This document shows, piece by piece, positions 11,166 to 39,109 of a stretch of 64,000 nt of DNA; the stretch's first letter is position 1; each line of letters begins with the position of its first letter. Origin of the DNA: Escarpia spicata (Eukaryota; Annelida; Polychaeta; Sabellida; Siboglinidae); assembly GCA_963995525.1 (NCBI GenBank), contig OZ023214.1:55556839-55620838 (forward strand), in the 5' to 3' direction. The position numbers were made by a program, and so were the translations under genes. The notes under the pieces were generated by a model, which ran no database searches, was not told the DNA's origin, and saw only the letters and a list, made by a program, of their open reading frames with translations.

Positions 11166-11728
11166 CTATTTCCACGTCCACCAAGCCAACAAATTCAATG
11201 AATGAGAAATTCCACATTTTATGCTGTGCATCCGGACATTTTCGAATATGCATATTTTTAGCGGACTTTTCGGGATGCCGAGATGTGACGTCACTTACGA
11301 CTCAAACTCGCACCAGGCCGACCCTTTCCATGCATTCAGAGCATATGTACAAGTATAGCTTTTGGGTCGAAACGAGCGTCAGAACGAGTTATTGTGCAAT
11401 ATTCTGACGTAATACAAACACTAGTCATCATAGAGGAACAAGCAGTTATGTTACGGATCCACATGAATCGAATTTTATTCAGAACAACGAATGCGAATGG
11501 GCCTACAAGTCGACTAGGTTTCGCTGAGCTTGGGCTCGTTTTCAGAATAATTATATCGAATGCAACCAACGGGAGATAATCTACACTAATAAACACACAT
11601 AGCAAACATATATTGTATCCAGCTACAGAAAGTAACGTATATCATCTCATAATATCACCAGAATATCGATATATGAAGGAGTTGTACAATTTATCATAAC
11701 AACTTGAATCAGTCAGAGAGGTTCCGCT

Positions 11729-11810
11729 GGTCCTGATAGCTCAGTGGGTAGGCGCGTTGGTTACTTGTCATTTATTTTACAATCGGGCGACGCCGGTTCA
11801 ATCCTGACAG
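11729..11810 (+). other. tRNA-like segment, left arm of palindrome 2
   Basis: A box-A-like TAGCTCAGTGGG is followed at tRNA-like distance by a good box B (GGTTCAATCC). Acceptor pairing is poor, so it is probably a pseudo-tRNA or pol III promoter carried by the element. Confidence 0.5.
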
Positions 11811-12270
11811 CATGCAAACCATTGATTTTCTTTACACTTTTTTTGTTTATGTTTTCGCAAAGTAATATAAAAAAATCACTGTAATGCACTGTTTGTAAAT
11901 AATTTTTGTTTTTGTAGTAATTATTTATTCGCCACAAAAATGAAAATATGATCATTATATAACGATGTTTCTAAATGTTATTTATCCAAACAACTATAAT
12001 GTAATGGATATATAATTCATTAATTGTAAATATATTGTACGGTAATGTATTGTAATTATATATATATGAAAACATATTGTGATCTGTCTGGATAAATACA
12101 ATTTAGAAACATCGTTATATAATGATCATATTTTCATTTTTGTGGCGAATAAATAATTACTACAAAAATAATAAAAATATTTACAAACTGCATTATAGTA
12201 TAATTGTTATATTACTTCGTGAAAACATAAACAAAAAAAGAAGTGTAAAGAAAATCAATGGTTTGCATGC

Positions 12271-12351
12271 CGGCAGGATTGAACCGGCGTCGCCCGATTG
12301 TAAAATAAATGACAAGTAAGCAACGCGCCTACCCACTGAGCTAGCGGGACC
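12271..12351 (-). other. tRNA-like segment, right arm of palindrome 2
   Basis: Mirror copy of the segment at 11729-11810, with box A CTAGCTCAGTGGG and box B GGTTCAATCC on the minus strand. Confidence 0.5.
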
Positions 12352-12512
12352 AGCGGAAATTGTGTGACTGATTTAAGTTGTTAAGATAAATTGGACAACT
12401 CCTTCATATATCGACATATATAACGACATTCTAGTGATATTATGAGATTATACACGATACTTTATGTAGCTGGATACAATAAATGTTTGCTATGTATGTT
12501 TATTGGTGTAGA

Positions 12513-17429: not shown

Positions 17430-18287
17430 CTGTTCTCATTGGTATCGGGCACGGAAGTCGGAAATAAAGTGTCACCGTCACCATACCGACCTCGAATGGC
17501 ACGCGTCGCCCAATGTCTCTTATATCGATCTCTATCGTCCCGAACTCTTTACACAAAGAGGGACGCACTGGACAATATCGAAACTCTTGGACACGGGGCC
17601 CCGTTCCGTCCGATAACCGCAACGCTCCGCAACAACGGTGCGAGACTCACCGATGACACGTGACTCCACGACGTCCGTGTAGACGTACATGATGGTGAAT
17701 CCTTGATGCAAGTCCACCACGAAAGCGGCCTCTTTTTCGTAGGCGTACTCAACACCACCAAAACTGTCTGGTGTATCGCTGGTCGACGGAGGTCTGATGT
17801 TGTTTCTATGCATGGGCGGGGGGACTTTGTGTCAGAACTGGAGATCACCGTCGTATGGAAACCTGTTATGGTGTCCATGACACTCCCTACTGATATGCTA
17901 AACTCGGTTGTGGGTGTCATGTGCAAGGTTACCTTGTGAGAGATGTCGATGTAGCTCAGTTTCGCCTTTATCTTATCCGTCCACATTTTCAGCAGTTCCC
18001 TGTTGATTGCGCGCAACAATTGGATCACGTTGTAGTAATACTCGTGTTCGATTTTGGCAGATGGAGTGAATCCTGTACTATCGGACTCGTAGAGGTAGAA
18101 CGTGGTATTCTCCTCACGAACGTTGTACCAAGTGTGCGAACTCAAGCATATCGCAGTCCCACTCGCCGCTGCCCGATAGCACAACACGACGAGGCAAGTC
18201 CGTGATGTAATGAGCCACGGTGTTATCGGGATGCGTGCAAATGGAAGCGTTGCTAGGCAACGTCAGATAGAAATCACTCGTCGTCAT
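17430..18287 (-). pseudogene. Polinton penton-like (minor) capsid protein, frameshifted
   Basis: ATG at 18287 gives an N-terminus with 'FYLTLPSNAS' and 'FPDN/THPDNT' style, characteristic of the single-jelly-roll protein found in Polintons. After a frameshift near 18140 comes 'HTWYNVREE', then more shifts near 17815 and 17650, and finally 'FGTIEIDIRD' and 'VPFEVG' near the C-terminus at about 17450. All parts of the family are therefore present in order but spread over three frames. Its start overlaps the end of the membrane-protein gene by 14 bases. In a virion it would form the five-fold vertices. This copy is dead. Confidence 0.75.
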
Positions 18288-18588: not shown

Positions 18589-19791
18589 CTAGTCCTTATA
18601 GCCAACGAGGGCCTTGGCATCGATCCAGCTGTTGAATTTCGAAGGGTATCCTAACCATTTCACCAACACCTCCCTTCGCCTGCCCACTTTGCGTCGCTCC
18701 ACTATAGATTCCACGTGGTACAGTTTATCGGCCGGAACCATCACCTTCTGCAACTCCGGTTCGTAGAAGATTCCATCCAATGTCTCGCTGTGATCGTCAG
18801 TCAATCAATAGACGGGCGGATCGGACGGATGCACCTCGCGTATAATGAATATTTCCTCGGTTCAATTCGCCATGTACCCTTTGATGAAAAGTCTCTTGAA
18901 CTTGCTGATACTCACGCGATCCGCCACGTGGTACTTGGGCACGCCCTTGCCATACAGATCGCCGTACAAGCGCTGCCACATCTCTTCCTGATTCGATGCA
19001 TTCACCTGCGACGGAGGCATACCGATGCTGCGGTGGAGGGTGTCGTTGTTCGAGCATACCATGTCCTGAAATATATCGATGTATCGCCTCGTCTCGTGTT
19101 TCGTCAGGTATCGCCACATACGCGTCTTCAACGTGCGATTAAAGCGTTCCACGATGCTCGCCTTGGTCTCCTCGTTGTAGGTGTAGAAGTGATGGATACC
19201 GTACCTTTCCAATAAACCCCGAACGCCGCGGTTCAGGAATTCCAGTCCTCTATCGGTCTGCAACGTCAGCGGACGATCGTCGTCGGTGAACAGTTCGTCC
19301 AGCGCCCTTACCATCGACGTCGCCGACTTGTTCTTCAGCGGAACGCATCGGGCGACTTTCGAGAAGACGTCGATCACCGTTAGCAGGAACGTCGTACCGT
19401 CGTTGTCTCTTTTCAGACTGGACACGTCGACGAGATCGGCCTGCCACTGTTGATTCCGGTCTCCTACGACAACGCGTCTGCGCCGGAAACGAACTCTCAC
19501 CGGTTTATGTATGGTATAGGCGTTCTGGTTCGATAGCCATTGTTTGAAGACTTTCCTCGGCACACGCTCGATAGGTCGGAAGGTGGCGCGACGCAGACTC
19601 GATTCCCCGTAACTCCCCACCTTGGTGGGATCGAAGTAAACTCCCTGCAGCTGTTTGCGACGGCTAGCAATGATGTACGAATAATATAGTCGATAGTAAT
19701 CACGCTCACGATGTGAAGTCCGGCGTAAGCGATAGCGGCAAACAGACAACGCAGACTGTCCCGTGGATCGAACATTATGCTGACGATTCAT
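18589..19791 (-). pseudogene. Polinton retroviral-type integrase with chromodomain, two in-frame stops
   Basis: The catalytic core lies in the 309-residue frame 18862-19791: D119 ('WQADLVDV'), D180 ('TDRGLEF') and E216 ('SIVERFNR') give a perfect D-D-35-E spacing. The upstream part holds the usual 'YYRLYY...DPTKVGSYG' segment. In the same frame, after stops near 18862 and 18805, follows a C-terminal chromodomain ('HVESIVERRK', 'EVLVKWLGYP', 'NSWID'). Chromodomain-bearing integrases are the hallmark of Polintons and insert the element with 6-bp duplications. Apart from the two stops the gene is well preserved. Confidence 0.88.
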
Positions 19792-22474: not shown

Positions 22475-23308
22475 ATGTCGATGCAAGGATAACAAGGTGT
22501 ATTGGGGCCTCTACTGAAGAAAAGGAAGAAGTTGACGCCAAAGCCTTCTACGTCGGCAACTGTCTCCACTGCTACCGGTATCAACGCGCCCGTTGCCGCC
22601 GCCGCTGCAGCAACGCCGCCCGTCGCCGCAGAGGCGATCAGCGCGCCCATTGCCGCAGCAGCAGCAACGCCGCAGAAGACCGTTTCTACGGCAGTCGCTG
22701 CAGAGGCGCCACCCGGTATCAGCGCGCCCGTTACCGGCCACACTGCAGAGGCGACACCCGGCATCAACGCGGCGGCGGTCCCTGTGGATGATCCCGCGTC
22801 GTCGCTCTACGCGCCAACACCTGTGAGTTTGAGCGAGCTCATACAGGCGGAAGACGGCTTGTATAAGATAGCTACGCCCGTAAGGATCGTAGCTATCACG
22901 TGGAGGAGTAAGTGCACGTACGCGGGGTGCACCCAGTGCCGGCGTAAGGTGGTTCTTTCGAATGCCGGAACTATGATGTGCTTATCCCAAGGGATGCAAA
23001 GTGAGCCGAAAAACTATTTTTCGGTTCGCGCAATGGTGAAGGAGGATGTCGAACCGGAGAGCGATCACGAAATTTGGCTCAGTCTATTCGATAACGTTAT
23101 GTCGCAGCTCGTCCCCTTCCACGCCGACTATATAGCGTGTATGGGTCCGGAAAAATTGCGCGACATGATCCTGACGCTCGTCGGTACGAAAAACTGTAGG
23201 ACTGCTGTAGGACGTCGACCGGGCTCTCGACAGTATAATCGCCGACGGTTTGAGGACTGTGCACGAGGCACCGGTTGTGCCGCCGCCGCCGTAGGCGGTG
23301 GAAGTTGA
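22475..23308 (+). pseudogene. Polinton RPA70-C-like single-strand DNA-binding protein, copy A
   Basis: ATG at 22475 is followed in frame by a stop at 22490-22492; the same frame then stays open to 23308. It opens with a basic, nuclear-signal-like KKRKKLTPK (about 22520), then a low-complexity Ala/Pro repeat of about 85 residues, then a domain matching the copy at 30729. That domain has 'DGLYKIATPVRIV', a zinc-ribbon-like CTQCRRKV...C, 'FSVRAMVKED', and 'IWLSLFDNVMSQLV' followed by 'YIACMGPEKLRDMI'. The order matches the zinc-ribbon OB fold (DBD-C) of RPA70. The 3' end drifts out of frame near 23195. Predicted role: coating single strands during element replication. Inactive as it stands because of the early stop. 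Confidence 0.6.
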
Positions 23309-23699: not shown

Positions 23700-24153
23700 C
23701 TCCTCCCAAGGACGAACGAAGCGCGGACGAAATATTTACTGTACGCGTTCGCCGAAGCGATCGGGGAAACGATATTGGGACGGGCGCGGCGCTACTGCGG
23801 TTAGTGCGCCCCCGACGAAGGGTGCCCCTTCGTTCACATGGACGGGTACCGAGCCGGCCGACCTAACCGACGCTACTGAAGGATGTACGAAAATGTGGCT
23901 GACATATCCAGTCGTTTCTTCCAGCACGTGCTCGATTCGTACCTAAATCGGTCGCTCGTGCCTTACGTGACGAGACTTATACTCATCCTGCATGATCAAT
24001 GCGCGCTCCAACCGGACCGATCCGCGGAAGCCGACCTCGTGAAACAGGTAGCCGAGTAGTTGTTAGGCACCGACTGGACTGCCTGCTTCCACAACGCCAT
24101 ACTAGAGAGCGCGGTAGAGGCTTACTTGTTGAGAAGAGCCGGACTCGATGTCT
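23700..24153 (+). pseudogene. Helical accessory gene remnant, Polinton A
   Basis: One frame, with stops near 23800, 23878 and 24055, reads a helical protein ('KYLLYAFAEAIGETILG' ... 'FFQHVLDSYLNRSLVPYVTRL' ... 'YLLRRAGLDV'). It sits in the same place as the duplicated helical gene at 31591-32181 in Polinton B. The pattern of hydrophobic residues is similar, but sequence identity is too low to be sure. Confidence 0.35.
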
Positions 24154-25237: not shown

Positions 25238-25243
25238 AGCCAG

Positions 25244-25310
25244 AGTAGTAGTATTGTCCATCTGGGTAAGTGGCGTCATTTTGTCGTCAAGATGGCGGCG
25301 TCTCTTTCAG
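25244..25310 (+). repeat. Polinton B left terminal inverted repeat
   Basis: Pairs with 39022-39088 over about 67 bases with scattered mismatches. The first 11 bases are identical. Target duplication AGCCAG directly precedes it. Confidence 0.9.
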
Positions 25311-25317
25311 GTATCAA

Positions 25318-25690
25318 TACGTGTGTATGTATGAGTAGTCACGTGACCGGATGTGTGTGTGAGTAGTCATGTGACCGGATGTAGTGCACCCCCTGACGGA
25401 AGAGAGCGGAGTGAGTACCCATGGAAGTCCTATTGTGTATATGGAAGAAAGGAACGAAAGATCAAAGAGGAAAGTGTAATAACGAAAGATCAAAGAGGAA
25501 AGTTTTAAAAGGTGTTTAAAGGTGGGTCATTAGAGATAAAGAAGTATACTAAATGATGTATTGACGAAGTGACAGGTATGTGTATAAGTCGTCCTATGTT
25601 GTATCGTGTATAACAAGCATAAAAGGTGTAGGAAGGTAGGTCATTAGAGATAATGAAGTATACTGAAAGATGTGTTGATAATGTTTATAA
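25318..25690. repeat. Sub-terminal tandem repeats of Polinton B
   Basis: Two copies of 'gagtagtca[ct]gtgaccggatg' (25333-25381), two of 'aacgaaagatcaaagaggaaagt' (25453-25503), and two longer copies around 'ggtcattagagataa[at]gaagtatact' (25523 and 25637). No ORF. Confidence 0.6.
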
Positions 25691-25694
25691 ATCG

Positions 25695-27510
25695 TGCTAT
25701 GTGTTATAATAATAATAATAATAATAAGATAACTTCTATTGCGCCTAAATCCTTGGAAACCAAGCTCAGAGGCGCATCAAAACAAAAGGGTTGGTCAATC
25801 TCAAAGTCCATAAGTAGTTTTCCAGTTGTCAACAGATGGGTCAAGGCGCTAGGGAGCTAAGGTGGATAAGCAAGGTTGTAAAGATACGTTTTTAAATGAC
25901 GACGGAATTTTGTAATATTTTCAACTGATCTAACACTAAGAGGAAGCATATTCCAAAGAGTTGGTGCAGCAACAGAAAAAGCCCTAGTTCCAATGTTAGT
26001 GTTGGCTCTAGGAACAAAAAGTAGGTCAGAACTAGATGATCGAAGCTGGATAGATTTTCTTACAGGAGTAAGCAATAAATGCAAATAAGATGGTTGCTTA
26101 TTGGACAGTGCCTGATATGTAATGGTACAGATCTTAAAAATTATACGATATCGTACAGGAAGCCAATGTAAAGACTTCAAAAGTGGCACAGAGCGAGAAA
26201 AACGAGGAGATCTTGTAACTACTCTTGCTAGACAATTTTTGACACGCTGAAGTTTTGTGATATCCTTGCTAGCGATATTATAAAGGAGGGAATTGCAATA
26301 GTCAATTCTGCTGCTAACAAGCGCTGTTGCAATAGTCTTAGCAACAGAAAATGACATATACCGGCGAATACGGCGAAGATCACGAATATGATAAAAACAG
26401 CAGCGACATGTTTGAGATATATGTTGTCGGAAATTGAAGTTTCTATCAAAGATTACTCCTAGATTACGCACCGAGGTTGCTGGCGTGATGTACTGATTCA
26501 AAATACGCGTAGGGAAAAAACCATCCAGTTTACAACGCTGCATTCGAGTACCAATAATGATCAATTCAGTTTTATTTGCATTTAATTTCAACTTGCTGTC
26601 AGTCATCCAATGGAAGATATCTTGAAGGCAATCACTAAGTTGGTTAAGGGAGCGATTTGTATCTGGGGTAGCCAACGAAATGTAAATCTGAATGTCATCA
26701 GCATAAAGATGATGATCTAAGTTATGTTTTTGTATAACAGAGCTTAGTGGCGTGGTGTAAAGAGTAAAAAGCAAAGGCCCAAGAACAGAACCCTGGGGAA
26801 CACCAAATAAAGCCGGCAGTGCAGCTGAAAAGCAGTTCCCAATCTTTATAGTTTGGTATCTATCAGTTAGATACGAAGAAAACCAGCTTAGAGCTGTGCC
26901 AGATATGCCGCACCACTTTAATAGGCGTTCAATGAGAATGCTGTGATCAATCGTGTCAAACGCGGCAGAGAGATCTAGTAAGGTAAGTGCAGTCACTTTA
27001 CCATTATTAATGTTCAAGGTAATGTCATTATGAACCTTTAAAAGGGCAGTCTCTGTTGAATGAAACTGCTTATATGCTGATTGTGACACATTAGTTAACA
27101 CATTTGTGCTAATGTGAGACCTTAGACGACTTGCTACAACCTTTTCTAGTATTTTGGAAATGAAGCTGAGATTAGAAATAGGTCTATAACTGTTTAGGTC
27201 TTGCTTAGGCAGAGATGACTTCTTAAGAAGTGGTGTGACATGGGCGTATTTAAAATCATCAGGAAAACAGCCAGAGCAAAGTGATGCATTTATAATATTT
27301 GTTATAGGTCCAATTAGTGTATCGAGACATGCTTTTAGCAGCATTGTTGGAAATGGATCAAGTGCACAAGATTTATTTGGGGAGGACATAATTATTTTCC
27401 TAACTTCATCAACTGTTGCAGTATAACGAGGAATAAACGAAAGAGTATGAAACTTTAAAATATGTATGTATGTATATATGTATGTCTGTATGAAAGAAAA
27501 ATTATACCTA
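25695..27510 (-). mobile_element. L2-like non-LTR retrotransposon inserted in Polinton B
   Basis: Minus-strand LINE, 5'-truncated near 27430-27510, with a 3' tail of short (ATT)n repeats at about 25707-25728, typical of L2/CR1-group elements. It interrupts the left part of Polinton B and so is younger than it. Confidence 0.8.
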
Positions 27511-27542
27511 AGGTAATAACCAACAAAACAACAGATTTCCAA
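25857..27542 (-). CDS. L2-like LINE reverse transcriptase (open 561-codon frame)
   Basis: A long uninterrupted RT frame; the first 40 or so residues probably belong to flanking DNA. RT motifs: 'SYRPISNLS' (about 118), 'LLDLSAAFDTIDH' (about 188), 'GVPQGSVLGPLLFTLY' (about 247), the catalytic YADD (280-283), and 'KTELIIIGT'. The C-terminus has the usual 'RIDYCNSLLYN' and 'LHWLPVRYRI' blocks. No endonuclease domain remains. The open frame and clean 3' tail show this is a fairly recent insertion. Without its 5' half it cannot move by itself. Confidence 0.9.
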   Translation of the reverse strand: MEICCFVGYYLRYNFSFIQTYIYTYIHILKFHTLSFIPRYTATVDEVRKIIMSSPNKSCALDPFPTMLLKACLDTLIGPITNIINASLCSGCFPDDFKYAHVTPLLKKSSLPKQDLNSYRPISNLSFISKILEKVVASRLRSHISTNVLTNVSQSAYKQFHSTETALLKVHNDITLNINNGKVTALTLLDLSAAFDTIDHSILIERLLKWCGISGTALSWFSSYLTDRYQTIKIGNCFSAALPALFGVPQGSVLGPLLFTLYTTPLSSVIQKHNLDHHLYADDIQIYISLATPDTNRSLNQLSDCLQDIFHWMTDSKLKLNANKTELIIIGTRMQRCKLDGFFPTRILNQYITPATSVRNLGVIFDRNFNFRQHISQTCRCCFYHIRDLRRIRRYMSFSVAKTIATALVSSRIDYCNSLLYNIASKDITKLQRVKNCLARVVTRSPRFSRSVPLLKSLHWLPVRYRIIFKICTITYQALSNKQPSYLHLLLTPVRKSIQLRSSSSDLLFVPRANTNIGTRAFSVAAPTLWNMLPLSVRSVENITKFRRHLKTYLYNLAYPP

Positions 27543-27567
27543 AGTTTAATAATATTTATTCGATAAC

Positions 27568-27765
27568 TTAGACAAAACCATCATCATCATCACTACCATC
27601 GGAAACACAATTCTCCCTATCTCCTGTGTCAATTGGCGGTGTGGGAGGTGGACTATACCACGGACTAGGTGGTTCGATGCGCTCTCGTGTACTCAGCAGT
27701 TCCCGCATGACATAGCAGAAGAATATTTCGTGTTCAGCACGTAACTCTTCTTCTCTGGAACATAT
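27568..27765 (-). CDS. Polinton B proline-rich C-terminal exon
   Basis: Minus-strand frame from a possible acceptor TTCCAG|A near 27760, reading an acidic helical start, then 'SPWYSPPPTPP' and an Asp-rich end 'SDDDDGF'. It sits on the minus strand to the left of the RPA-like gene, the position held by the proline-rich gene at 21436-22068 in Polinton A, so it may be its counterpart. The upstream exon is not found. Confidence 0.3.
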   Translation of the reverse strand: MCSREEELRAEHEIFFCYVMRELLSTRERIEPPSPWYSPPPTPPIDTGDRENCVSDGSDDDDGFV

Positions 27766-27836
27766 ATGAAAAGTTTGAAAATATCTTCTCTGGAACATAT
27801 ATGAAAACTTTGAAAATGATATTATATATATATATA

Positions 27837-27881
27837 TTTCACACAATATATATATACATATATATATATATTGTGTGAAGT
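27837..27881. repeat. AT-rich perfect hairpin
   Basis: TTCACACAATATATATATA pairs with TATATATATATTGTGTGAA around a short loop. A cruciform-prone simple repeat. Confidence 0.6.
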
Positions 27882-27897
27882 ACAGTCGGTGGGAATA

Positions 27898-28110
27898 GAC
27901 CACCAATGTAACCAGACACCGCATAGGTAGGCGACACGATAAAAGGGCATGTTAGGTCAACAGACAGGAGAGATAAGAATGGACTATGACACAATACGTA
28001 GACGTCTGCTGGCGCGCTCGGAGCAACGTAACCAGACACCGGGTAGCTAGCCGAAACGATAAGAGGGCAGGCTAGGTCAACATACGCATAGATAAGAAAG
28101 GACTGTGACA
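27898..28110. repeat. Tandem duplication, ~112-bp unit
   Basis: Bases 27903-27990 and 28020-28110 share 'gtaaccagacaccg...taggtag', 'cgataa.agggca', 'taggtcaaca' and 'gataagaa.ggactgtgacaca' in order. Non-coding. Confidence 0.55.
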
Positions 28111-28119
28111 CAAAATGTA

Positions 28120-28958
28120 TATACATTGCAGAGAATGAGAATCGTGGTACGCCAAGACAGAGTGGGCATTGTTTTGCTCGTTGGGTTCGTTGGTAGCTTT
28201 GTGGGCGAACGGGCCCAGAGCGTGTGCGTGGTTGGTAGTAGGTTGACTGTCTCAGGATTTTTGTCTCTGACATAGAATGAGAGGGCCTGAGAGATCTCTG
28301 GTTTAAGACTGGCTAGTGTGCGGCTCCGCAGTTCGGTTCCGTAGCGCTGTTTTACGAGTCTAGGTAGCTCCTGATGGATAAGTCTAAGCCAGCTCAATAC
28401 CTCCATGTTCTCTAGCGACGGTGATAAGTCCTCATCTACGGTCGGGAACTCGTCGTGGTGTGATATACCGCCACCCACTGTCAGCAGACTATCATCAACG
28501 AACGCCACGAGGCGTTGGAATAGGTCCTCGTGGTTTTCGTCTGATTCAAGTTTTATGTCGGCGAAATCTATGAAGTGAGCGCCGCTTGTCTGGAACCCGA
28601 AGTGAAGTCTGATTGCCTGCCATATGGAGTTGACGGATGTCGAGTTTTTGACGATGGTATTTCGCGATATGATCGGGCAGAAGTTGGCAATCTGCCCAAG
28701 CATTAATTCTAAGTGCGCGACTTTTTGTTGTGCCGTTCGCCTAACCAAGCCTGGTGTGTCTTCGGTATCGTCAAGTAGGCCTCTGAGTGGAGAAGTGTTA
28801 GTTTTCTTTCCCCATGTTGCCTGGTCGAGTAAGAATGGTGCGAAATTCGCGTCCAATGATAGAGTATATTGGAGGTTTTGGCGCCAGCTCTCATATGACG
28901 TCAGTGTTTCGTGTTTTGAAAGAGACCACTGTTTTGGAGCTCTCTGTGACTGAGCCAT
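28120..28958 (-). pseudogene. Second copy of Gypsy 1 gag, inside Polinton B
   Basis: ATG at 28958. The frame stays open to about 28077 and matches Gypsy 1 gag (16279-17114) almost base for base, but without the frameshift of that copy. About 16 bases differ near 28279, where this copy lacks sequence. It stops at the start of the zinc-knuckle region, and pol is absent. With the LTR at 29105-29243 it is the 5' part of a truncated insertion. Confidence 0.8.
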
Positions 28959-29104
28959 TGTCGCGTTGACGTGTAGCTCAATCGTCTATGCAAATGCCGG
29001 CAATGTTCAATGTTAACTACTGCGTACGGAAAGTACGCATTCGTCGTGCCGTTTGTTTGGCTATACGAGTATCTATCCACTTCAGTAGTGAAAACGCTGC
29101 CACC

Positions 29105-29243
29105 ACGCCAATATAGAAGGGAAAGACTCGATAACGACGAGAACATTTATTGAACAGACTTATCTCAAAGCGGAAGTCGAGGCAAGAGGACGTACAGACG
29201 CAATCATACAGGAAGCGGAAATGTGATACTTATCCAATATGGC
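29105..29243 (-). repeat. Gypsy 1-family 5' LTR, second copy
   Basis: Matches 17262-17425 except for a loss of about 30 bases in the middle (near 29195). The match ends at the same base, after 'ccaatatggc', confirming the outer LTR border. Confidence 0.65.
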
Positions 29244-29299
29244 GGTAAGTAGGTTATAAATAAGTAAAAGTAAGTATATAATCGTTGAACAGTCACGTC

Positions 29300-29379
29300 C
29301 ATTCCGAGTCGCAGTCACTGTGAACACTGCTGCTGCTATCATCGTCAGCACTGCTGCCATCATCGTCAGTATTATACCT
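29300..29379 (-). CDS. Possible acidic terminal exon
   Basis: After a pyrimidine-rich acceptor (ttttAG|G near 29380) the minus strand reads a 27-residue Asp/Ser-rich tail ('DDDGSSADDDSSSSVHS') and a stop. It could be the last exon of a small minus-strand Polinton gene. Upstream exons are not identified. Confidence 0.2.
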
Positions 29380-29557
29380 AAAAGAGAAATATAGACAACG
29401 GTGACACAAAACGAATGAAGTGAGTATAAATAAGCGAAAGGAATACTAATGAATTGGAAAGAAGAGGTTAGATACACACGTCACAGGTAGGTTGCGTGAA
29501 GAACACTGTGTAATTATGCATATGATATTTATCGAATGAAACAAAGCAAAGACAGAA

Positions 29558-29559
<2 letters not shown>

Positions 29560-29592
<33 letters not shown>
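29560..29592. repeat. (TA)n microsatellite
   Basis: About 15 TA units within the gene-poor stretch 29400-29970, which otherwise shows nothing recognisable beyond a repeated 'aaagtacaa.cctatatcagtcatatgaca' at 29738 and 29800. Confidence 0.8.
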
Positions 29593-29980
29593 TATTGCCG
29601 ACATAGTTGCAGATGTGAATGGAATGATATGAACGTAACAAACGAGATATATATATAGGATAGATGATATGTAGACACACTGTAAAGTCAAGTTTTATGA
29701 CACACTGTAAGGAAAAGTTTGGTGTATGAAAAGTGGTAAAGTACAAACCTATATCAGTCATATGACATAGGAACCAGCTGGCAATGTATGGCCAGTAGTA
29801 AAGTACAATCCTATATCAGTCATATGACAGAGGGAGCAACTGACTGGCAATAAGCGCGTGATGTTCGAAAGGAAGCAAGACGACAATGCATGAGGAATGC
29901 GCCTTATCGGAACGCAGACAATACAGGCGAGGACGGGACCACGATAAGAACTCTGTGAGTGCGCGTGGTCAGTACTAACG

Positions 29981-30471
29981 ATGAAACATATGGCGGTCAG
30001 CAGCTTGGATATACAATTCAGGGGTGCCGGACACTTCCTATCGAGTTTTTATCCGTGTGATACACACATATGGGGCGAAGACTTCACTTCACGTGCAGAG
30101 TCAGCCTATCAGTATAAAAAGCCAGACATTTTCATGATGAGAACACAGCAAGAAAGCTTAAGACTGCCCGCAATGGATTACAGGCGAAATACTTGAGTAA
30201 ATATATTCAATGGAGTCCCGATCGAACGGCTTCATGGCTTGCACAAAGGCGATCCGTGATGTACGCGATAGTAGCCGTGAAATTCCGTGCGTCTAAACTA
30301 TGGCAACGCTTGCTTGCCACAGGTGACGCGTGTCTTATTGAGAATGTACCTAGTGCGGAAGGGTATTGGGGGAAGAGTTCTAGACGGAACGAAGCAGGTA
30401 AGAATATACTTGGCATTATTCTCATGCAAGTGAGAGACTTCATTAGGCAGAGCTCTGTACGGCTTACATAA
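29981..30471 (+). pseudogene. NADAR-family (YbiA-like) protein in Polinton B, one frameshift
   Basis: ATG at 29981 starts a domain reading 'FRGAGHFLSSFYPC' then 'FTSRAESAYQYKKPDIF', the family's N-terminal 'LSNFYP...F.s.E.ayQ..K' block with its conserved Glu. A one-base shift between about 30105 and 30133 moves into the frame that ends at 30471. It carries 'NGLQAKYLSK', 'MYAIVAVKF', 'LLATGDACLIEN', 'GYWG' and 'AGKNILGIILMQVRDFI', the standard C-terminal blocks. Total about 160 residues, the family's usual length. NADAR proteins are linked to ADP-ribose and to cleavage of N-glycosidic bonds in riboflavin intermediates. Here a nucleotide-metabolism or anti-defence role can only be guessed. It lies about 260 bases before the RPA-like gene on the same strand. 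Confidence 0.8.
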
Positions 30472-30628
30472 GGCGCTCATTAAAAAAAACAGACAGCCAC
30501 ACGGTGATAGAGTACGAGAGAGAGAGAGAGAGATAAGGTCACGCGCCTGATAAGACGCGAACACCCAGGGACGCATGATGGCTTTGTCTAGGGTATCACA
30601 TGGACGATGCCTGGAGGGAATAATTATG

Positions 30629-30636
30629 TATATAAA
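30629..30636 (+). promoter_or_regulatory. TATA box of the RPA-like gene (Polinton B)
   Basis: TATATAAA, 93 bases before the ATG at 30729, followed by a pyrimidine-rich likely start region (ctctctctccgactcgctgcc). Confidence 0.55.
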
Positions 30637-30728
30637 CCCAGCCTAAATCTAACAGAACAAAAACTCTCTCTCCGACTCGCTGCCGTTCGAAGATCTTCTC
30701 TCACACACACCGATTCCTGCACGACAAG

Positions 30729-31229
30729 ATGACGGCGGCGCCTAACTTCAAGTCGAGCTCTGAGGAAATGCAGCTGACAGACCTCGAGAAAGTAAGTGAT
30801 GGAATGTACGCATTTGTTCGACCACTCACACTCGTAACATGTGCTCTGTCAGCTGAATATGTGTGTTATCCAGCGTGTCGTATCTGTAACCGGAAAGTCC
30901 TTCTCGAAACGATGAAAGGCCACCATAGCGCCAATGCATGTCCGGTCAATGGGCGACAGAAGGGGGTTCCCGTATACAACTATGCTATGGGCATGCTGTT
31001 CGCCGATCGCAAGGGCAACGAAGTGTGGGCGTCGGGATTTGACCGTCTAGTCCCGCGGGTCGTAGAGGGACTGACAGCAAGCGACTATATGTCGCTTAAA
31101 ACCGACGACGAACGCTACCAGGCAGTGAGTGTCCTACGTGGCAAACAGGCTAGGGTGATAATTAGAAAGACAAAAAAAACAGGCTACCGGAACTACACCG
31201 TGATAGCCCTGAAAATAATCCAGTCGTAA
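30729..31229 (+). CDS. Polinton RPA70-C-like single-strand DNA-binding protein, copy B (intact)
   Basis: An intact 166-codon ORF with good start context and a TATA box upstream. After about 25 residues comes 'DGMYAFVRPLTLVTC'. Then 'YPACRICNRKVLLE' gives the first half of a zinc ribbon, with His/Cys (HHSANAC) as the likely second half. Next is an OB-fold-like core 'YNYAMGMLFADRKGNEVW' with 'GFDRLVPRVVEGL', 'YMSLKTDDERYQAV', and last strands 'ARVIIRKTK' and 'YTVIALKI'. The order of these blocks parallels eukaryotic RPA70 domain C (YPAC..C.KKV ... W...F ... LG...EL ... R...K). Copy A at 22475 shares the layout. Predicted role: ssDNA binding in protein-primed replication, next to the element's polymerase B. 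Other zinc-ribbon OB proteins are possible. Confidence 0.7.
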   Translation: MTAAPNFKSSSEEMQLTDLEKVSDGMYAFVRPLTLVTCALSAEYVCYPACRICNRKVLLETMKGHHSANACPVNGRQKGVPVYNYAMGMLFADRKGNEVWASGFDRLVPRVVEGLTASDYMSLKTDDERYQAVSVLRGKQARVIIRKTKKTGYRNYTVIALKIIQS

Positions 31230-31296
31230 GACCTGTCTGTCTGTCTGTCTATTTGACACCGGAAGCGATTACGTAAGTTCCTATATCGTGTTGTAG

Positions 31297-31548
31297 ATGT
31301 ACCCGGTCGATGTGTCCCCCTGGTCGACAACGCCCCAGGTAACACCATCTCATCATGATGTCATTGAGTCGTCACAGGTGACACCATCCCATCATGGCGT
31401 CAAACGTCGTCTTAGCTTCACGAACAAATCCGACGACGTCGATGATGAGGCAAGTGTAATCTGTGTGGGGTCATGTACGTGGTCTAGTGATGATGCTAAT
31501 GATGCTGATGATGATGATGACGTCCGTAGGCGTAGTGAATTACAGTAG
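31297..31548 (+). CDS. Small acidic ORF, Polinton B
   Basis: An 83-codon frame starting at ATG 31297. It contains a repeated 'QVTPSHHDVIESSQVTPSHHGV' type segment (two copies of QVTPSHH) and a C-terminal Asp-rich tail ('DDANDADDDDDV'). It is preceded by a (CTGT)n tract. No family recognised. It lies 67 bases after the RPA-like stop, so is probably read from the same transcript unit. Confidence 0.4.
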   Translation: MYPVDVSPWSTTPQVTPSHHDVIESSQVTPSHHGVKRRLSFTNKSDDVDDEASVICVGSCTWSSDDANDADDDDDVRRRSELQ

Positions 31549-31590
31549 GCGGTATAGAAGGTGAATAGCATTCAGAAGCGTACGGAGAGA

Positions 31591-32181
31591 ATGATAAACG
31601 AGGAACTATTTATAGCCACTCTAACCACAGCCTGCGTGCGCTACGCAGCCAAGGGACTGCGTCGCCACTATGCGGACGTTCACGAGGACCTGTGCAGTGT
31701 GGATCGGACACGTATATTTAATAGTCTCCTTATGGTAGTGGCCGACCTGACATGTACAACGTACAAACCGAGGTTTGCTCGTGATATTATACCACGGGTG
31801 AAAGCGATTCTGCGTAGCCGAGGTATAACCGTAGCAGATGTGAAGGAAGACGAGGAGAAGAAAGAGGAACAACAAGACAGATCGCCCAGGGAGGAATCGC
31901 TGGACTGGGACTATGGTCTGCGCACAGTAACAGTCGATACCATCGTCCGTTTCATAAGCAACGAACTGTGGCGCACTTTTGCAGATGAGGACAACGACAT
32001 CTACATGGTACGTAGTGACCTGATATACGACAATGTGAAGTGGGCAGTGGTCTATTACATGTATGCAGTGGACACACCGAAGTGGACACGTGACACTTTA
32101 GCACGTGTGCAAGCCATCCTGCGATTACATGATATATCACAGTTGTACGACACTGACAAGGAACCATACTACCCCTGCTAA
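31591..32181 (+). CDS. Helical protein with internal duplication, Polinton B (intact)
   Basis: ATG at 31591 (an in-frame GTG at 31561 precedes it) begins an intact ORF of about 197 residues. Two halves of about 70 residues are alike: 'TACVRYAAKGLRRHYAD...FARDIIPRVKAILRSRGI' and 'DTIVRFISNELWRTFAD...WTRDTLARVQAILRLHDI', joined by a Lys/Glu-rich linker. All predicted helix, no Cys motifs, no signal peptide. No known family recognised. It sits between the RPA-like and polymerase genes, suggesting a role in replication or DNA packaging; that is inference from position only. Confidence 0.55.
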   Translation: MINEELFIATLTTACVRYAAKGLRRHYADVHEDLCSVDRTRIFNSLLMVVADLTCTTYKPRFARDIIPRVKAILRSRGITVADVKEDEEKKEEQQDRSPREESLDWDYGLRTVTVDTIVRFISNELWRTFADEDNDIYMVRSDLIYDNVKWAVVYYMYAVDTPKWTRDTLARVQAILRLHDISQLYDTDKEPYYPC

Positions 32182-32199
32182 TGTTGTTGTTGTTGTTGT

Positions 32200-32840
32200 G
32201 TTGACAGGACGCCGGTGCTGCCTCCAGCGGATTGGACCGTATACGGAAGGCGTATACGGACAAGAAGCTGGAGTGGGCACCACGGAAGAAGCGTCGCCAC
32301 CACGTTCCCGTGCCGCTACGACGTGCGCTCTTGGTGCACCTCCACGAGAAGCGTCACACGTCATCTTCACCCCTGGAGATGACGTGCGACAATGTAACAA
32401 CGCCACCGGCATCCGATGCCACACCTCTCCAGATGAGTTGTGATGACGAAGATGAGGTCATCCTAACGGAGTCGGTATACGCAGCCCTCCAACCCGTCAC
32501 GGATGACGACTATAACGTCACCACAACGGCATCGGAGTACGAGGCGCTCCGTAGTGACACATCCACGATCGATCTATCCTACGATGGACACATGGACTTG
32601 TCCATAGTCTATACATCGGTCCCGTACGCCTATGCAGCCCCGTTCGAAGGTATGCGTTAGATCGAATGCGACATCGAACGGTTAGCCGGCGTCATCCTGG
32701 CAACCCGCGCGTCGTACACGGTGCGCGACTCGGTGCAGTTGATATGCGCGGAGCTAGCACGGAACATTATCCGCGATGAGCACGTGAACTACGTCGCCGA
32801 GACTCTTTGTAGTAATCTGCAGACTAGTCAGATTCAGTAG
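32200..32840 (+). pseudogene. Basic-to-acidic ORF upstream of polymerase, Polinton B
   Basis: An open frame follows a poly-TTG tract and a good splice-acceptor-like TGTTGACAG|G at 32206. It begins basic ('KKLEWAPRKKRRHH'), then Ser/Thr/Asp-rich ('PLEMTCDNVTTPP', later 'PLQMSCDDEDE', a weak repeat), with a stop at 32658-32660. The same frame then stays open to 32840 with a helical segment ('VILATRASYTVRDSVQLICA'). The upstream exon is not identified. Function unknown. The basic stretch could bind DNA. Confidence 0.4.
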
Positions 32841-33151
32841 GTTACCCAGTGACATACAAGAGGAAATGCGCTCCTACGCCAGTTGGGGTTATAGGCGTAT
32901 CTTGTATATCACACGTAGAGTACTTATTGTACTTGCATGTTGTTCTTGTACATTGCCGAGTGGCGTTGCGAGCCACACCTCCTCGCTGACATCTATCCAC
33001 CTTCATACTTCGTTGCCCTTGCGATCGGCGATCAGACAGACATATATACATACATAGATACACACGCACACTCATACAAGGTACCTCCCCGTGCTATCTG
33101 ACTATGCAATGTATTATACGTAGCCACACCCCCTCTGTCCACACACCTATA

Positions 33152-33179
33152 TGACGTCACGCAGTGTAGGATATATAGA
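33152..33179 (+). promoter_or_regulatory. CRE site and TATA box of the polymerase gene
   Basis: A full palindromic TGACGTCA (33152-33159), the binding site of CREB/ATF-type bZIP factors, lies 12 bases upstream of TATATAGA (33172-33179). The ATG is at 33227, so transcription would start near 33205. The spacing suits a compact viral-type promoter. Confidence 0.55.
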
Positions 33180-33226
33180 AACGTGCAAGGATCTCGCATC
33201 CTTCAGTTGTATGTACATACAGCACG

Positions 33227-36200
33227 ATGAAGCAACACTCGTGTCGCCACTGTGGAATCGTCCTCGATACATACGACGACATACAACGCCACATAGACCG
33301 AACGCATTTATCAACACACGTTGACGATCATGCCTACAGCAAACCACCGTCGCGAGTGGTGCCATCTGACGAACCACCGAAAGTCACTAAGCACCCCTGT
33401 CCGACATGTGGAAGAGCCTTCACGAGACGATATGACCAGGTACAGCACACGAGGACGTCATGCAGGGGCAGGTCACAGAAAAGCGATACACACAGCTGTG
33501 AGACTTGTGCACGTGAGTTCACGAGACGTGACGTCTTGTTACGTCATATCAAGACGGTATGTTGCAGACGTGCAGAGGTAACCGACCCACCGCTACCCAA
33601 GCCAGCGAGACGCACAGAGCGGCCAAGTGTGAGCGCCGACGACGACGTCGACCCAATACAGCCGCCGCCCCGACTGCCCTTCGTCGACACTCTATCGAGG
33701 GAGCTGCGAGACGTCGTCCGAGATCACTGGTCAACCATCCGCACCCACGTGTACAGAGGACCCGTGCAATCCAGGTACAATTACAAAGTGTCGACACCGG
33801 ACACGTCTCGTCTAGAACCATCACTGAAAATCATGTTCCGCGAACAGACGCACGCGTTCAAAATTAATCTTAGTTACGGTTTTGTGCTGAGGAACAAGAT
33901 CACTAACCGATACCAATATTACCATTCGTCCTGTAACTGTTGTGGTCGTTACATCGATGAACCTTGTCTTATCACCAACACCGAAAAGGTTGATGCATTT
34001 CTGGAGCGTATCCGAGAAACAGACGTGTTGCAATGGGTCATCAATCAACGTCCGGACTGTCAATGGGTATGCGAGGTGGTCACGAATGTCACCTTCTTCG
34101 TCAATCACATAGTCGATCATCCGATGTGGACGTCCGAGGTACATCAAACGGAACAAAGCCGTCATCGGATTGGAAAGAGAACCCAACAACGCGAAGAGGT
34201 ACACCGACAATCTGTGTCTCTTCCGGTGCCTGGCTCTGCATCGTGGATGCGACAGACACCACCTGTAACCCACTGTGAAGGTACTCCACGCGAAGTACGA
34301 CCGAGACGGAGTGGCTAGTAAAGACTTTGACTGGGTGACGATGGACGACCTCTATCGCATCGAGACCACCTTTGAGACCAACGTGTGCGTCTACACGCTC
34401 GTCGAACCGGAAGAAGAAGGTGGAAAGACGACTGCCGAACTCGTACGCCTTTCGTTGTGTCACTATCCCGAAACGTTGTACGTCAATCTTCACGAGACAC
34501 ACTTTTCCTACATACAAGACGTGAACATGTACTGTCATTCGTATCGATGTAGGAAGTGTGGCGACTCGCTATGGCAATACGCATCCAAACTAGAGAGACA
34601 CGAGCGCGGGTGTACGGGAGGTGTGCGAAAGATCTATCCCGGTGGCGTCTACCGTCCGTCGCCGACAGTCTTCCAGCGGTTGGACGACGAAAACATTCGC
34701 GTTCCCGAGTGGATGTACTACTATCCCTATCGCGCCACCTTCGACTTCGAGACCTGGTTCGATACGTCACACCTTCCATCGGACAGCGCCAAGGTCCACT
34801 GGGTGGCTCGTCACGTACCGTTGAGTGTGTCCCTGGCGAGTAACGTACCCGGATTCGAACAGGTGCAATGTCTCATCACGGACGGCGACAGCAACAAGTT
34901 GGTATCCGACATGATGACCATCCTTCAGGCGATGAGCGATGCAGCCTACGAAGCCATCATAGACAAATACGAGGGCACCCTCCACGAACTCGCGGAGGCT
35001 ATCGTGACGAGGGACGAACAGGAGGCGCACGCCACTGATGGGGACAAAGAGTCACGGCAACAATCGACCAATCCCTACAAAACACTCATGGGTCAATAGA
35101 ACGGTTGGCTTCATCAGTTGCCCGTCATCGGCTTCAACTCGGGCAGGTACGATCTGAACGTCGTCAAACAGTTCCTGGTACCCTACTTCCTGTCCACAAA
35201 GAAAGCAACAGAGGACGACGACGGGGAGGAAGAGGAGGAAGCCGGGACGTTTCACGTGATCAAACGTGGCAACACGTTTATGTGTCTATCGACGGACGAC
35301 CTTAAATTCCTCGACATGACTCATTATATCGCCCCGGGATACTCGTACGACAAGTACCTGAAAGCGTACGGTTGCGAGGTCACGAAAGGTCACTTCCCGT
35401 ACGAATACATGGACAACTTGGAGAGACTCGACGACACCGCTCTACCTCCCAAAGAGGCTTTCTTCAGTCGACTGAATAACGAAGGTAAATCCGACGACGA
35501 CTACACTTTTGCGGGACTTTCTCGTCTGGTACAACAACAGGGACGTCGTACCGTTCTTGGAGGCCATCGCCAAACAGTTTGACTTCTACCGACACCGCGG
35601 TCTCGACATGTTCAAACAAGGGATCAGTATACCTGGTTTGACCTTGACCTACCTGTTCAACTACGTGCCGGAGAGGACGTTCTTTACGCTCTTCAACGAG
35701 ACAAACAAGGACGTACTCGTCCGAGAGAACAACGTCGGAGGACCGTCACTCATCTTCATCAGACATCACGAGAAGGGGGTCACGAAGATATGTCGTAACG
35801 ACTAAGGCGATACGGCTCGAACGTGTCAGTCCATCGTTGGATATGATGCAAACGCATTGTATATGTGGTCGTTATCGCAAGAGATGCCGACGGGATGGTA
35901 CACGCGACGACGGGAAGAGAAGGAGTTCCGACCCGAAGCGGCACAGCCCACAGGTCAGATGGCCGCCGAATGGCTGACGTGGGAGTCCGAAAGCACGGGA
36001 CGCACCATACGTCACCAGTTCAACGGTCGAGAGAAGCGCATCGGTAAACTGCTGGTGGACGGTTGGTGCAGCGAAAAGAAGACGGCCTATCAGTTTCACG
36101 GATGCTTCTACCACGGCTGTCCGTGCACCGGACGTGAAGTCAACGAGGTCAACGGGAAACTGCTCGCCGAAACGCGAAAGAACACGGCCTACCTACGTCA

Positions 36201-37160
36201 CTTTGTGAGGGTCGTCGAGTTGTGGGAATGCGAGTGGGAGGTCGCGAGACGCGGTCCGTGCGTGAAACAGTTTCTGGACGTGACCTTTCGCTGGCGCCGT
36301 CGACACGTGCACTGGAAAATGACGTCACAACAGATCCTGACAGGCGTACGCAACGGTAGCGTGTTCGGTATGATTCAGTGCGACATACGTGTACCGGAGG
36401 ACCTGCGCGCGCACTTTGCCGAGATGCAGCCCATCTTCAAGAACATTCACCTGACCCGCGATGACCTCGGGCCGTTCATGCGTCGCTACGCCGAAGAACA
36501 CGACATCATGGCAACCCCGCGTCGCATGCTCGTCGGGAGTTATCGTGGGGATAAGATCTTGCTCGCCACACCTCTCTTGTGATGGTACCTTGAGCACGGA
36601 CTCGATATGACGCACGTCTACCAGGTCATCGAGTACACACCGGTCGCCTGCTTCCGACGATTCGGCGAGGCGGTGTCCATCGCACGTCGCGAAGGAGACG
36701 TCCACCCCGACAAGGCCATGATCGCAGACACCAACAAACTTATGGGAAATTCTTCCTATAGGAAATTTATCACCAACGTCGTTAAGCACGGCGAAGTCAC
36801 CTACTGCACGGAGAAGAGGGCGTCGATCGCGATCAACAATCGTCGCTTCCGCCAACTCGACGTCGTCACTGCCGATGCGTACGAGATCGAAATGCACAAG
36901 CGCACCGTCAAATACACCCTGCCCACGCACGTGGGATTCTTCGTGTTGCAGTGGGCCAAACTGCGTTTATTGGAGTTCTACTACGAATTTATGGTCAGGT
37001 ACGTGGAACGTCCGCTGTTCGAGTACTGCGAAACCGATACGGACAGCGCCTATTTAGCTCTGGCCGGAGAGTCCGTCGACGACCTCGTGACCCCGGCACT
37101 GCGCGACCACTACTTTCGTCACCGCTCCGAATTGCTACCGTCCGAATGTTGCGTCGATCG
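33227..37160 (+). pseudogene. Polinton protein-primed DNA polymerase B with N-terminal zinc fingers, C-terminus lost
   Basis: ATG at 33227. Three C2H2/C2HC-type fingers lie in the first 110 residues (CRHCG..., CPTCGRAF..., CETCAREF...). Then come the exonuclease motifs 'FDFETW' (Exo I, 34743) and 'GFNSGRYDLN' (Exo II, 35127), and polymerase motif A 'DANALY' (35845). Next are the 'GYQFHGCFYHGC'-type block (36090), motif B 'KLMGNSSYR' (36739) and motif C 'ETDTDSAY' (37032). The frame shifts near 34135 and 35505 and has in-frame stops near 34267, 35097, 35803 and 36580. About 40 residues after motif C it runs in frame into capsid sequence. It would replicate the element from protein-bound ends. 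Dead in this copy. Confidence 0.9.
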
Positions 37161-38082
37161 CACGATGCTACACATTCAGGCGAAGGTGACGCGTGTCGAC
37201 GGAGCCGATCTCGTCGCCGCCGATCCCGTCCGTCCCGTGAATAACTGGCTCCATTCGCTGTTCAGTCAGGTCGACGTCTACCTGAACGGAACGCTCGTGA
37301 CTCCCTCGACCAACACGTACCCGTACCGCGCCTACATAGAGACGCTGCTCAGTTACGGCGACGACGCCAAGGAGACACAACTAAAGAGTCAGATGTGGCA
37401 CAAGGACACGGCCAATCGTATGGACGTCGTCGTAATAGACGCCGATGATTCCGTCGCCAACGCGGGGTTCGTCAACAGACGCAACATGATCGCCCAGAGT
37501 CGCGTGGTGGACATGGTGGGTCGTCTCCACGTGGACCTCTTCCTACAGGATAAATTCCTCATCAACGGCGTCGAGGTCAAGATACGTCTGGTGCGCAGCA
37601 AGGATGCGTTCGCGCTCATGGCCTGCGGAGGCAACCCCGATTACAAGATAAAGATCGTCAACGCTACACCACGATTCGTCAAGAAGGTCACCCTGAATCC
37701 GAGCGTTCAGATGGCTCACATCAAAGCCCTCGACAAAACCACCGCCAAGTATCCGATGCGACCCGTCGACTGCAAGGTCTACTCCATTCCCACAGGTGTC
37801 AGGTGCTACCATAACCTGTTCACCTCGACAGGTAAGGTGTGACAGGACGAAGGCAACGGCTTGTCTCGCGCCAACTTCCGACACGGCTACACCTTCTTCG
37901 GCTTGGACCTCACCCCCGATGCGTGCGACGACTGCTGCTTCCATCTGGTACAAAAGGGCAACCTGCGCATCGAGATTCATTTCCGCGACGCGCTGACGAC
38001 CACTGTGAACGTCATCGCCTACGCCGAGTTCGAGACCGTGCTGGAGATCGACAAGAGTCGTAGCGTCATCTACGACTACTGA
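37161..38082 (+). pseudogene. Polinton major capsid protein (double jelly-roll), N-terminus lost
   Basis: From about 37161 the polymerase frame continues without a stop into the Polinton hexon-type capsid family: 'VNNWLHSLFSQVDVYLNG', 'TYPYRAYIETLLSYG', 'FVNRR', and later 'HGYTFFGLDLTP' and 'VNVIAYAEFETVLEID' to the stop at 38080. A single in-frame TGA at 37840 splits the last 80 residues. About 300 of the usual 500-600 residues remain. The N-terminal part is gone through the deletion that joined it to the polymerase. Invertebrate database entries of this family are often labelled F54H12.2-like. Confidence 0.85.
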
Positions 38083-38083
38083 G

Positions 38084-38535
38084 ATGGAAACCATGCAGCT
38101 CGTCCGCCTACTCGCCCTCGATATGCACGCCCGTGCCATCATCCGTGGGATCGTACTCAAAGACGTACTCCTCGATCTCCGGATAGACGCTTACCCCGTC
38201 GCCTTCGTGTGCAACACGCACGACGCGGTTAAACCCGGCGAACATTGGATAGCACTCTACGTAGACGCCAACGGTCACGGCGAATACTTCTGCTCTTACG
38301 GCTTGGCGCCACGGCACGTCGAGTTCCGCCGCTTCTAGAATAAACATTGTGTAACGTGGACTCATAATTCTAAGAGACTGCAGAGTCCCTTGTCTAACGT
38401 TTGCGGACAATACTGTGTTGCTTATCTCATGTTTCGCTGTCGTGGTCTTGTCATGAAGGATTTCGTAAACGGTTTCGGCACTGATCTGGTAGCAAACGAT
38501 TGCCGTGTATTTGATTGGCTTAAACAACTGCGATA
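38084..38535 (+). pseudogene. Polinton adenovirus-type cysteine protease, one in-frame stop
   Basis: ATG at 38084, one base after the capsid stop. The frame shows 'GEHWIALYVDANG' (catalytic His in HW), 'CSYGLAPRHVEF' (relatives usually have DSYG), an in-frame TAG at 38336, then 'NSKRLQS' (oxyanion Gln) and 'CGQYCVAYLMFRCRG' (catalytic Cys), ending at 38535. These are the motifs of the adenain/Ulp1-like maturation protease of Polintons, which cuts capsid precursors. The start is short compared with relatives. The stop kills it. Confidence 0.85.
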
Positions 38536-38539
38536 ACCG

Positions 38540-39020
38540 TGTTTCATTAACGAACAGGTATCATCATCATCATTATATGATTCGAGCCTATGGCGCGGTG
38601 GTCACACACCCGTAAGCTCACGGCCTCTGGCGCGGTGTTCGCTCACCCGTAATTCGTACTACCATCATTATCCTATGAGCCACTGGCGTGGTCGTCTTGA
38701 CCCCTAAGCTCACGAACTCTGGCGCGGTGTTCGCTCACCCGCAAGTCACCGTCGTCCACTTGTCTTCGGTTAATAAAACACGGTTTCATGTCGTACGTAT
38801 GCTTGTATCTTTCGTCAATAAAATTCGTGTGCACTCGTATACTCTTGTGTTTCGTTAGTTCTTTCATACACGCGCATTCATACACACTCCCTCCATAACA
38901 TTCAACCGGTAGGGACAGGCCCTCTCTATACTCCACCAGGGGGCGTCACGTACTATTTCTCCTCTGCGGCAGCCGCCAAGTGGCGCCTCTCTTTACATTT
39001 CTTTCCGCTAGGGGGAGATA
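38540..39020. repeat. Right sub-terminal region of Polinton B with CTCTGGCGCGGTGTTCGCTCACCCG repeats
   Basis: Four copies of a unit containing 'tggcg[ct]ggt' and '[ct]tcaccc' with 'taagctcacg' occur between 38585 and 38745. AATAAA at 38771 and on both strands nearby could end the protease transcript. No ORF with a domain signal. Confidence 0.5.
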
Positions 39021-39021
39021 G

Positions 39022-39088
39022 GTCACGTGTGCGCCGCCATCTTGGCGACGAAATAACACCACTTACCCAGATGGTCCATACTACTACT
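39022..39088 (-). repeat. Polinton B right terminal inverted repeat
   Basis: Reverse complement of 25244-25310 with scattered mismatches. It ends ...ATACTACTACT and is followed directly by the duplicated AGCCAG. Confidence 0.9.
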
Positions 39089-39109
39089 AGCCAGCTTTAA
39101 GGTGATGTT

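Follow-up and report, generated by a model that had tools for sequence, protein, structure and literature searches.

Does a Polinton, a DNA element whose PolB is reported to use protein priming (PMC11071308), carry a single-stranded DNA (ssDNA)-binding protein of the eukaryotic RPA type as its own? The question is raised by an open reading frame (ORF) of 166 residues, termed copy B, at positions 30729–31229 on the plus strand of the window, the 64,000-nucleotide stretch of Escarpia spicata contig OZ023214.1 (55,556,839–55,620,838) that was analysed here. An earlier note on this DNA had described an intact RPA70 domain C (DBD-C)-like gene of a Polinton that is shared by two copies (A and B) and forms part of the core gene set of its lineage. 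The frame indeed runs from ATG to stop as placed and has a Pfam match. The relatives of copy B described below are of two types, a short type to which copy B belongs and a long type.

Copy B matches the Pfam family PF08646 (Rep_fac-A_C) over residues 40–150 with an E-value of 3.2e-9 and 37.1 bits, above the cut-off of 28.5. The cut-off is also exceeded by the only relative found in databases, from an Escarpia laminata data set (P0001; 38.8 bits), by a long-type protein (L005; 44.5 bits) and by all six further copies scanned. The best match to an unrelated zinc-ribbon protein that the earlier note had named as refuting its assignment did not appear, as RPA70 DBD-C was the sole family above cut-off in the Pfam scans of copy B and its relatives. 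Against the PDB, copy B alone retrieves a single chain, 4gnx_C (E = 0.0014), which is named 'putative uncharacterized protein' and which we take to come from an RPA structure. L005 retrieves 6i52, presumably yeast Rfa1, at 1.6e-6 and, with E-values of 0.004 to 0.1, six more chains that bear an RPA or replication factor A name. A profile built from seven proteins retrieves nine chains at E ≤ 1, seven of them with such a name (best 1.4e-10); the remaining two are 4gnx (eighth) and lemA (ninth, 0.52). The NCBIfam model rpa1 aligns with L005 at model positions 439–550 of 608 (E = 4.4e-11), far under the cut-off of the full-length model, and matches neither copy B nor the E. laminata protein; PHROGs returned weak unnamed matches only (best 0.005). 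The Pfam match and the RPA chains found by the profile uphold the assignment to RPA70 domain C.

The relationship covers most of the domain and includes its DNA-binding face. In human DBD-C, Trp528 and Phe532 are reported to be important for contact with DNA (PMC10250233). Copy B residues W100 and F104 align with this pair in the profile alignment to the human chain, and the two DNA-contact aromatics are invariant in all seven aligned proteins. The regular expression used for the protein ends includes the W..F motif, and its rows cannot test that motif. The zinc-ribbon entry CxxC-RKV, which had been claimed for both window copies, is seen in both. The expected set of four zinc ligands is present in most relatives examined and incomplete in the window copies: copy B and the short-type locus L042 have Asn as the fourth residue, and copy A has Gln. 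The pattern C..C and C..H occurs in all 27 non-window rows (24 distinct places, three of them fetched twice, with the E. laminata contig included), each with His as the fourth ligand, and His is also found at four of five further short-type loci, the exception being L042. Whereas the fourth ligand of RPA70 DBD-C is Cys, nearly all the Polinton relatives seen have His at this place, and the window copies have lost it.

AlphaFold models based on the two window copies and the E. laminata relative reached mean pLDDT values of 43 and 48, and Foldseek searches with these low-confidence models gave no match at E ≤ 0.001. Because the underlying models are poor, the Foldseek lists carry no evidential weight. 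Block means of 59–75 pLDDT are reached by the ribbon region (residues 41–80) of the second model and nowhere else, as might be expected if the protein were a zinc-ribbon regulator, acting in transcription or packaging, that no longer bound ssDNA. Also missing from the short type is an aromatic residue ahead of the last strand, which in the long type aligns, by eye, with a Tyr of yeast Rfa1. Such a regulator is nevertheless improbable, given that both DNA-contact aromatics are kept in seven of seven proteins and that no other family rises above cut-off.

The relationship is confined to one domain of RPA70. Of DBD-A, DBD-B, DBD-C and the C-terminal trimerisation helix, Pfam finds only DBD-C, which here is the single domain of a protein of 162–273 residues. 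The trimerisation helix is a feature of the RPA70 C-terminus. The family proteins end 8–15 residues beyond the conserved YTV-type strand, so there is no room for this helix.

Copy B lies within a Polinton of 13.8 kb (25244–39088). An inverted-repeat search identified 57-bp terminal repeats at the left end (25244–25300, plus strand, starting AGTAGTAGTA) and at the right end (39032–39088, minus strand, 89% alike to the left). They are flanked by the target-site duplication AGCCAG, seen in the sequence at 25238–25243 and 39089–39094. Inverted repeats starting with AG and 6-bp duplications, as in Polinton ends, are found both here and in a complete element on contig C9 (duplication CCTGCT). Together with relatives that carry integrase, packaging ATPase and PolB genes, these ends confirm the Polinton setting that had been claimed. 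A reverse transcriptase ORF on the minus strand of the left part (25857–27542; RVT_1, E = 2.4e-35) belongs to a retroelement inside the Polinton and not to the Polinton itself. The remaining genes lie on the plus strand. A NADAR-domain gene with a broken frame (29890–30468), detected by tblastn with relatives that match the NADAR Pfam family, precedes copy B. Comparison with the E. laminata contig places homologues of its 278-aa and 192-aa ORFs at 31396–32145 and 32199–32822, respectively. Pfam gives no match to the 278-aa ORF or to the window ORF at 31594–32178, and the latter shows no similarity to the 184–201 aa ORF found in long-type elements. PolB follows in broken frames with C2H2 fingers at its N-terminus (33227–37218; tblastn, with relatives matching DNA_pol_B_2). 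A 32-nt stretch of the RPA ORF (30996–31027) recurs inverted, with 94% identity, at 33004–33035, just before PolB.

The distal part of the element is decayed. Rearranged pieces of a putative major capsid protein gene (37168–38076) abut PolB and are followed by a putative maturation protease gene with an internal stop (38084–38530), both detected by tblastn. The capsid, minor capsid and protease labels used throughout are presumptive and follow gene position; the putative capsid and protease genes have no Pfam match, and the capsid candidate has no sequence match in the PDB. A tblastn search at E = 1e-3 found no integrase, ATPase or minor capsid gene in the copy-B element. Because its capsid and protease pieces point the same way as PolB, whereas in the other mapped elements they are opposed to PolB, the element is rearranged, and since it is decayed and its RPA-like protein has lost one zinc ligand, copy B is the relic of a once active family. 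Elsewhere in the window, a large inverted repeat lies at 11577–12515, with arms of 98–185 nt that are 87–92% complementary; no link to the Polintons was seen.

Copy A is a longer-type RPA DBD-C-like ORF on the plus strand (22502–23308; Pfam and tblastn), whose frame is open from 22493 to 23305 with TTG at 22502 as the first listed start. Its PF08646 match (3.2e-6, 27.4 bits) falls just below the cut-off. Similarity to L005 in tblastn spans 22817–23191 (45.6% identity over 125 residues) and stops near 23191, and inspection of the three printed frames by eye revealed no C-terminal strands. The claim that copy A shares the layout of copy B holds for the motif and the DBD-C match, but copy A is less complete and its last strands were not seen. 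Judged from its sequence, copy A is a diverged member of the longer type. Downstream, at 23730–24146 (plus strand; tblastn), lies a relative of the 184–201 aa ORF found next after RPA in long-type elements. On the minus strand, tblastn detected an rve integrase (18604–19725; rve E = 1.1e-12 for 18862–19788) and several pieces of a putative minor capsid protein gene (17458–18281). Integrase, putative minor capsid gene, RPA and the following ORF make up the copy-A Polinton remnant, in which PolB gave no tblastn match.

The arrangement of an entire element is displayed by the C9 Polinton (9506705–9523853), which has 224-bp inverted ends that are 98.7% alike. In its gene map, drawn by tblastn and with some frames broken, p145 on the other strand is followed by RPA, the 184–201 aa ORF and PolB. 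After PolB, the opposite strand carries the putative protease, capsid, p141, minor capsid, p202, integrase, p241, p149, ATPase and NADAR genes. Pfam searches identified an integrase (rve, 6.8e-13) and a packaging ATPase (Adeno_IVa2, 6.4e-8) in region L012, both of which are also present in the C9 element by tblastn. DNA_pol_B_2 was matched at 28.0 bits by the L011 polymerase, above the cut-off of 25.8, and at 20.2 bits, below it, by that of L010. This family appears only with the whole frame, the C-terminal piece of PolB alone having no PDB or Pfam match; the whole L010 frame retrieves only zinc fingers and one unrelated chain from the PDB. Both families have a NADAR gene, which neighbours RPA in one family and lies distally, next to the ATPase gene, in the second (window 29890–30468; L012:5081–5554; L020:28–585). 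Integrase matches flank the RPA gene of the C1 element (L012:2562–5554, L027:7667–7999), which suggests that the element is adjoined by another Polinton or by a rearrangement.

Homologues next to PolB, which the earlier note had proposed to look for in other Polintons, proved to be common within this genome. Ten long-type places were selected by eye throughout the genome match list; PolB was present within the 4.5 kb fetched at eight of them and the 184–201 aa ORF at nine. PolB also follows in all nine other long-type regions, which were chosen by no sampling rule (L009/L010, L011/L012, L013/L014, L015/L016, L017/L018, L021/L022, L024, L025 and L026); L019 and L023 were left out of this count because the fetched DNA ended too early. 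All five sampled short-type places display the order NADAR-RPA-ORF-ORF. The PolB N-terminus lies 2.4–2.6 kb after the RPA start at four of them, and the 4.1 kb retrieved at the fifth showed no PolB. In the two long-type exceptions, L030 and L031, which resemble deletion derivatives, capsid-side genes directly abut RPA or the ORF after it. PolB is lost there and the RPA frame is still open, comparable to Mothra Helitrons, which are described as keeping RPA without RepHel (PMC4683698). Retention of RPA without PolB can mean either that it is useful to the derivatives or that the deletions are recent.

Plant, fish and cnidarian Helitrons are reported to carry RPA (PMC6431247, PMC4683698), so the gene might be a mere passenger in or close to a Polinton, either host RPA1 sequence or part of a Helitron with an RPA gene. 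This is scarcely credible, since the gene is multicopy, is housed in elements that have the ends and genes of Polintons, and has its neighbours arranged alike in the E. laminata contig; the complete C9 element also speaks against it. RepHel gave no match among the frames scanned, a subset of all frames. Sequences resembling host RPA1 are separate and grouped on contig C10 (L001–L003; the exon was read in L001 and L002, and L003 was assigned by family match), and the exons of L001 and L002 have a CxxC ribbon end. On C10, three RPA1-exon-like matches lie within 94 kb and two Polinton RPA copies about 38 kb away (C10:19677296–19681453 and C10:19719476–19813131).

A gene proper to the Polintons is also what the copy number indicates, and the 'two copies' of the earlier note, which themselves come from two distinct Polinton families, greatly understate it. 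Of 710 candidates in a PF08646 search of the genome (1.06 Gb, 1097 contigs), 150 were scored and each exceeded the cut-off; 147 of these are long-type and the other three are L001–L003. By hand count, 146 of the 147 long-type matches scored contain no stop in the matched stretch. The copy-B query gave at least 150 matches scored of 1186 candidates, itself included, at 69–100% identity, of which 137 of the 150 scored are free of stops (hand count). These numbers are lower bounds and count gene matches, with the Polinton setting mapped at the sampled loci. Four same-strand copy-B-type genes on C3 (52183724, 52200923, 52218110 and 52235298) are spaced by about 17.19 kb, as in a head-to-tail tandem array of Polintons. 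The RPA proteins of the two Polinton families share 27.5% identity, whereas NADAR shares 40%, PolB pieces 45–56%, the capsid candidate 53% and the protease candidate 61%. On these identities, RPA is the gene that diverged faster between the two families than the others compared. Two long-type RPA proteins (L015:7259–8083 and L017:9066–9884) end in six or seven Asp residues, in one case followed by Tyr, and acidic C-terminal tails are known in other ssDNA-binding proteins.

Outside this genome, relatives are scarce. Protein database searches returned only P0001 (one of 34 candidates; one among 7996 scored) or none (0 of 1090), viral contigs scanned with RPA, PolB and capsid queries yielded no relatives, and phage records contained none. 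P0001 is filed in the bin 'bacterium endosymbiont of Escarpia laminata'. Its contig (QGON01000011.1, L020; 4,088 bases) carries NADAR, RPA, two ORFs and the PolB N-terminus with C2H2 fingers, a gene order that suggests tubeworm Polinton DNA probably filed in a bacterial symbiont bin. The window and E. laminata genes were considered as a simple species pair, and this was rejected: the E. laminata copy is 91–94% identical to L043/L044 and 74% identical to the window copy. The high identity to L043/L044 points to a probable vestimentiferan host of the window that is related to E. laminata. Because it is nearer to L043/L044, the dN/dS values span subfamilies as well as species. For the short type, dN/dS is 0.21–0.42 with a median of 0.27 (21 pairs, seven genes), and for the long type it is 0.16–0.22 (three pairs). 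Between the window and E. laminata, RPA (0.24) and the PolB N-terminus (0.27) give lower values than the ORF that comes after RPA (0.50). The RPA-like gene is under purifying selection that is similar to that on the PolB N-terminus, for which one pair was compared. Conservation in two Polinton families, purifying selection and a usual position upstream of PolB bear out its description as a core gene of this lineage.

Selection and position also bear on a role directed against the host, in which the RPA fold would be kept to compete with or decoy host RPA partners, or to damp the DNA-damage response to displaced strands. With no room for a trimerisation helix, simple incorporation of the protein into host RPA would not be expected; basic stretches are seen by eye in the long N-terminal extension of the long type, and two sampled derivatives retain RPA without PolB. 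An anti-host protein is nonetheless unlikely, as a role in replication is favoured by the position next to PolB that is usual in both families and by selection like that on the PolB N-terminus.

The gene most likely encodes a stand-alone OB-fold/zinc-ribbon protein of the RPA70 DBD-C type that serves as the Polintons' own ssDNA-binding protein in replication, in what is probably a lineage of deep-sea annelids, a reading held with good confidence on sequence and gene context. The putative protein would comprise a single OB fold into which a zinc ribbon is inserted. Its predicted role is to cover the strand that the neighbouring PolB displaces in protein-primed synthesis, which would shield that strand and help the polymerase to advance. 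A single DBD-C of RPA has weak ssDNA affinity, which counts against this function. Even chances are given to the fuller proposal that, in a protein-primed Polinton lineage, a cell-type RPA module pared to DBD-C has become the element's own ssDNA-binding protein and takes the place of host RPA when strands are displaced during synthesis. The gene may be needed enough to persist in derivatives without PolB.

Among known systems, the Helitron RPA-like proteins are the nearest precedent, as transposon-borne relatives of RPA; Helitrons are rolling-circle elements, whereas the elements here have Polinton ends, PolB and integrase. Adenovirus DBP and the Bam35 and phi29 SSBs share with the Polinton protein a presumed function, covering displaced strands in protein-primed replication (PMC8276246). 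As described in that source, DBP has no clear OB fold and Bam35 SSB contains a highly divergent OB-related domain, whereas the Polinton protein belongs to the RPA group. Known animal Polintons and adintoviruses resemble the present elements in PolB, rve integrase, packaging ATPase, putative capsid and protease genes, inverted ends and 6-bp duplications, and differ in that the elements here carry the RPA-like gene and a NADAR gene. A term search within the accessible papers found no report of RPA in Polintons, adintoviruses or their kin. Polintons would be the second kind of transposon, after Helitrons, to carry RPA. If the proposed function is true, protein-primed dsDNA elements are no exception to the use of ssDNA-binding proteins with OB folds of the RPA group. 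An RPA relative ahead of PolB may explain how DNA is protected while Polintons copy themselves, and with an RPA-type protein beside PolB in many copies, the protection of displaced strands in Polintons becomes directly testable.
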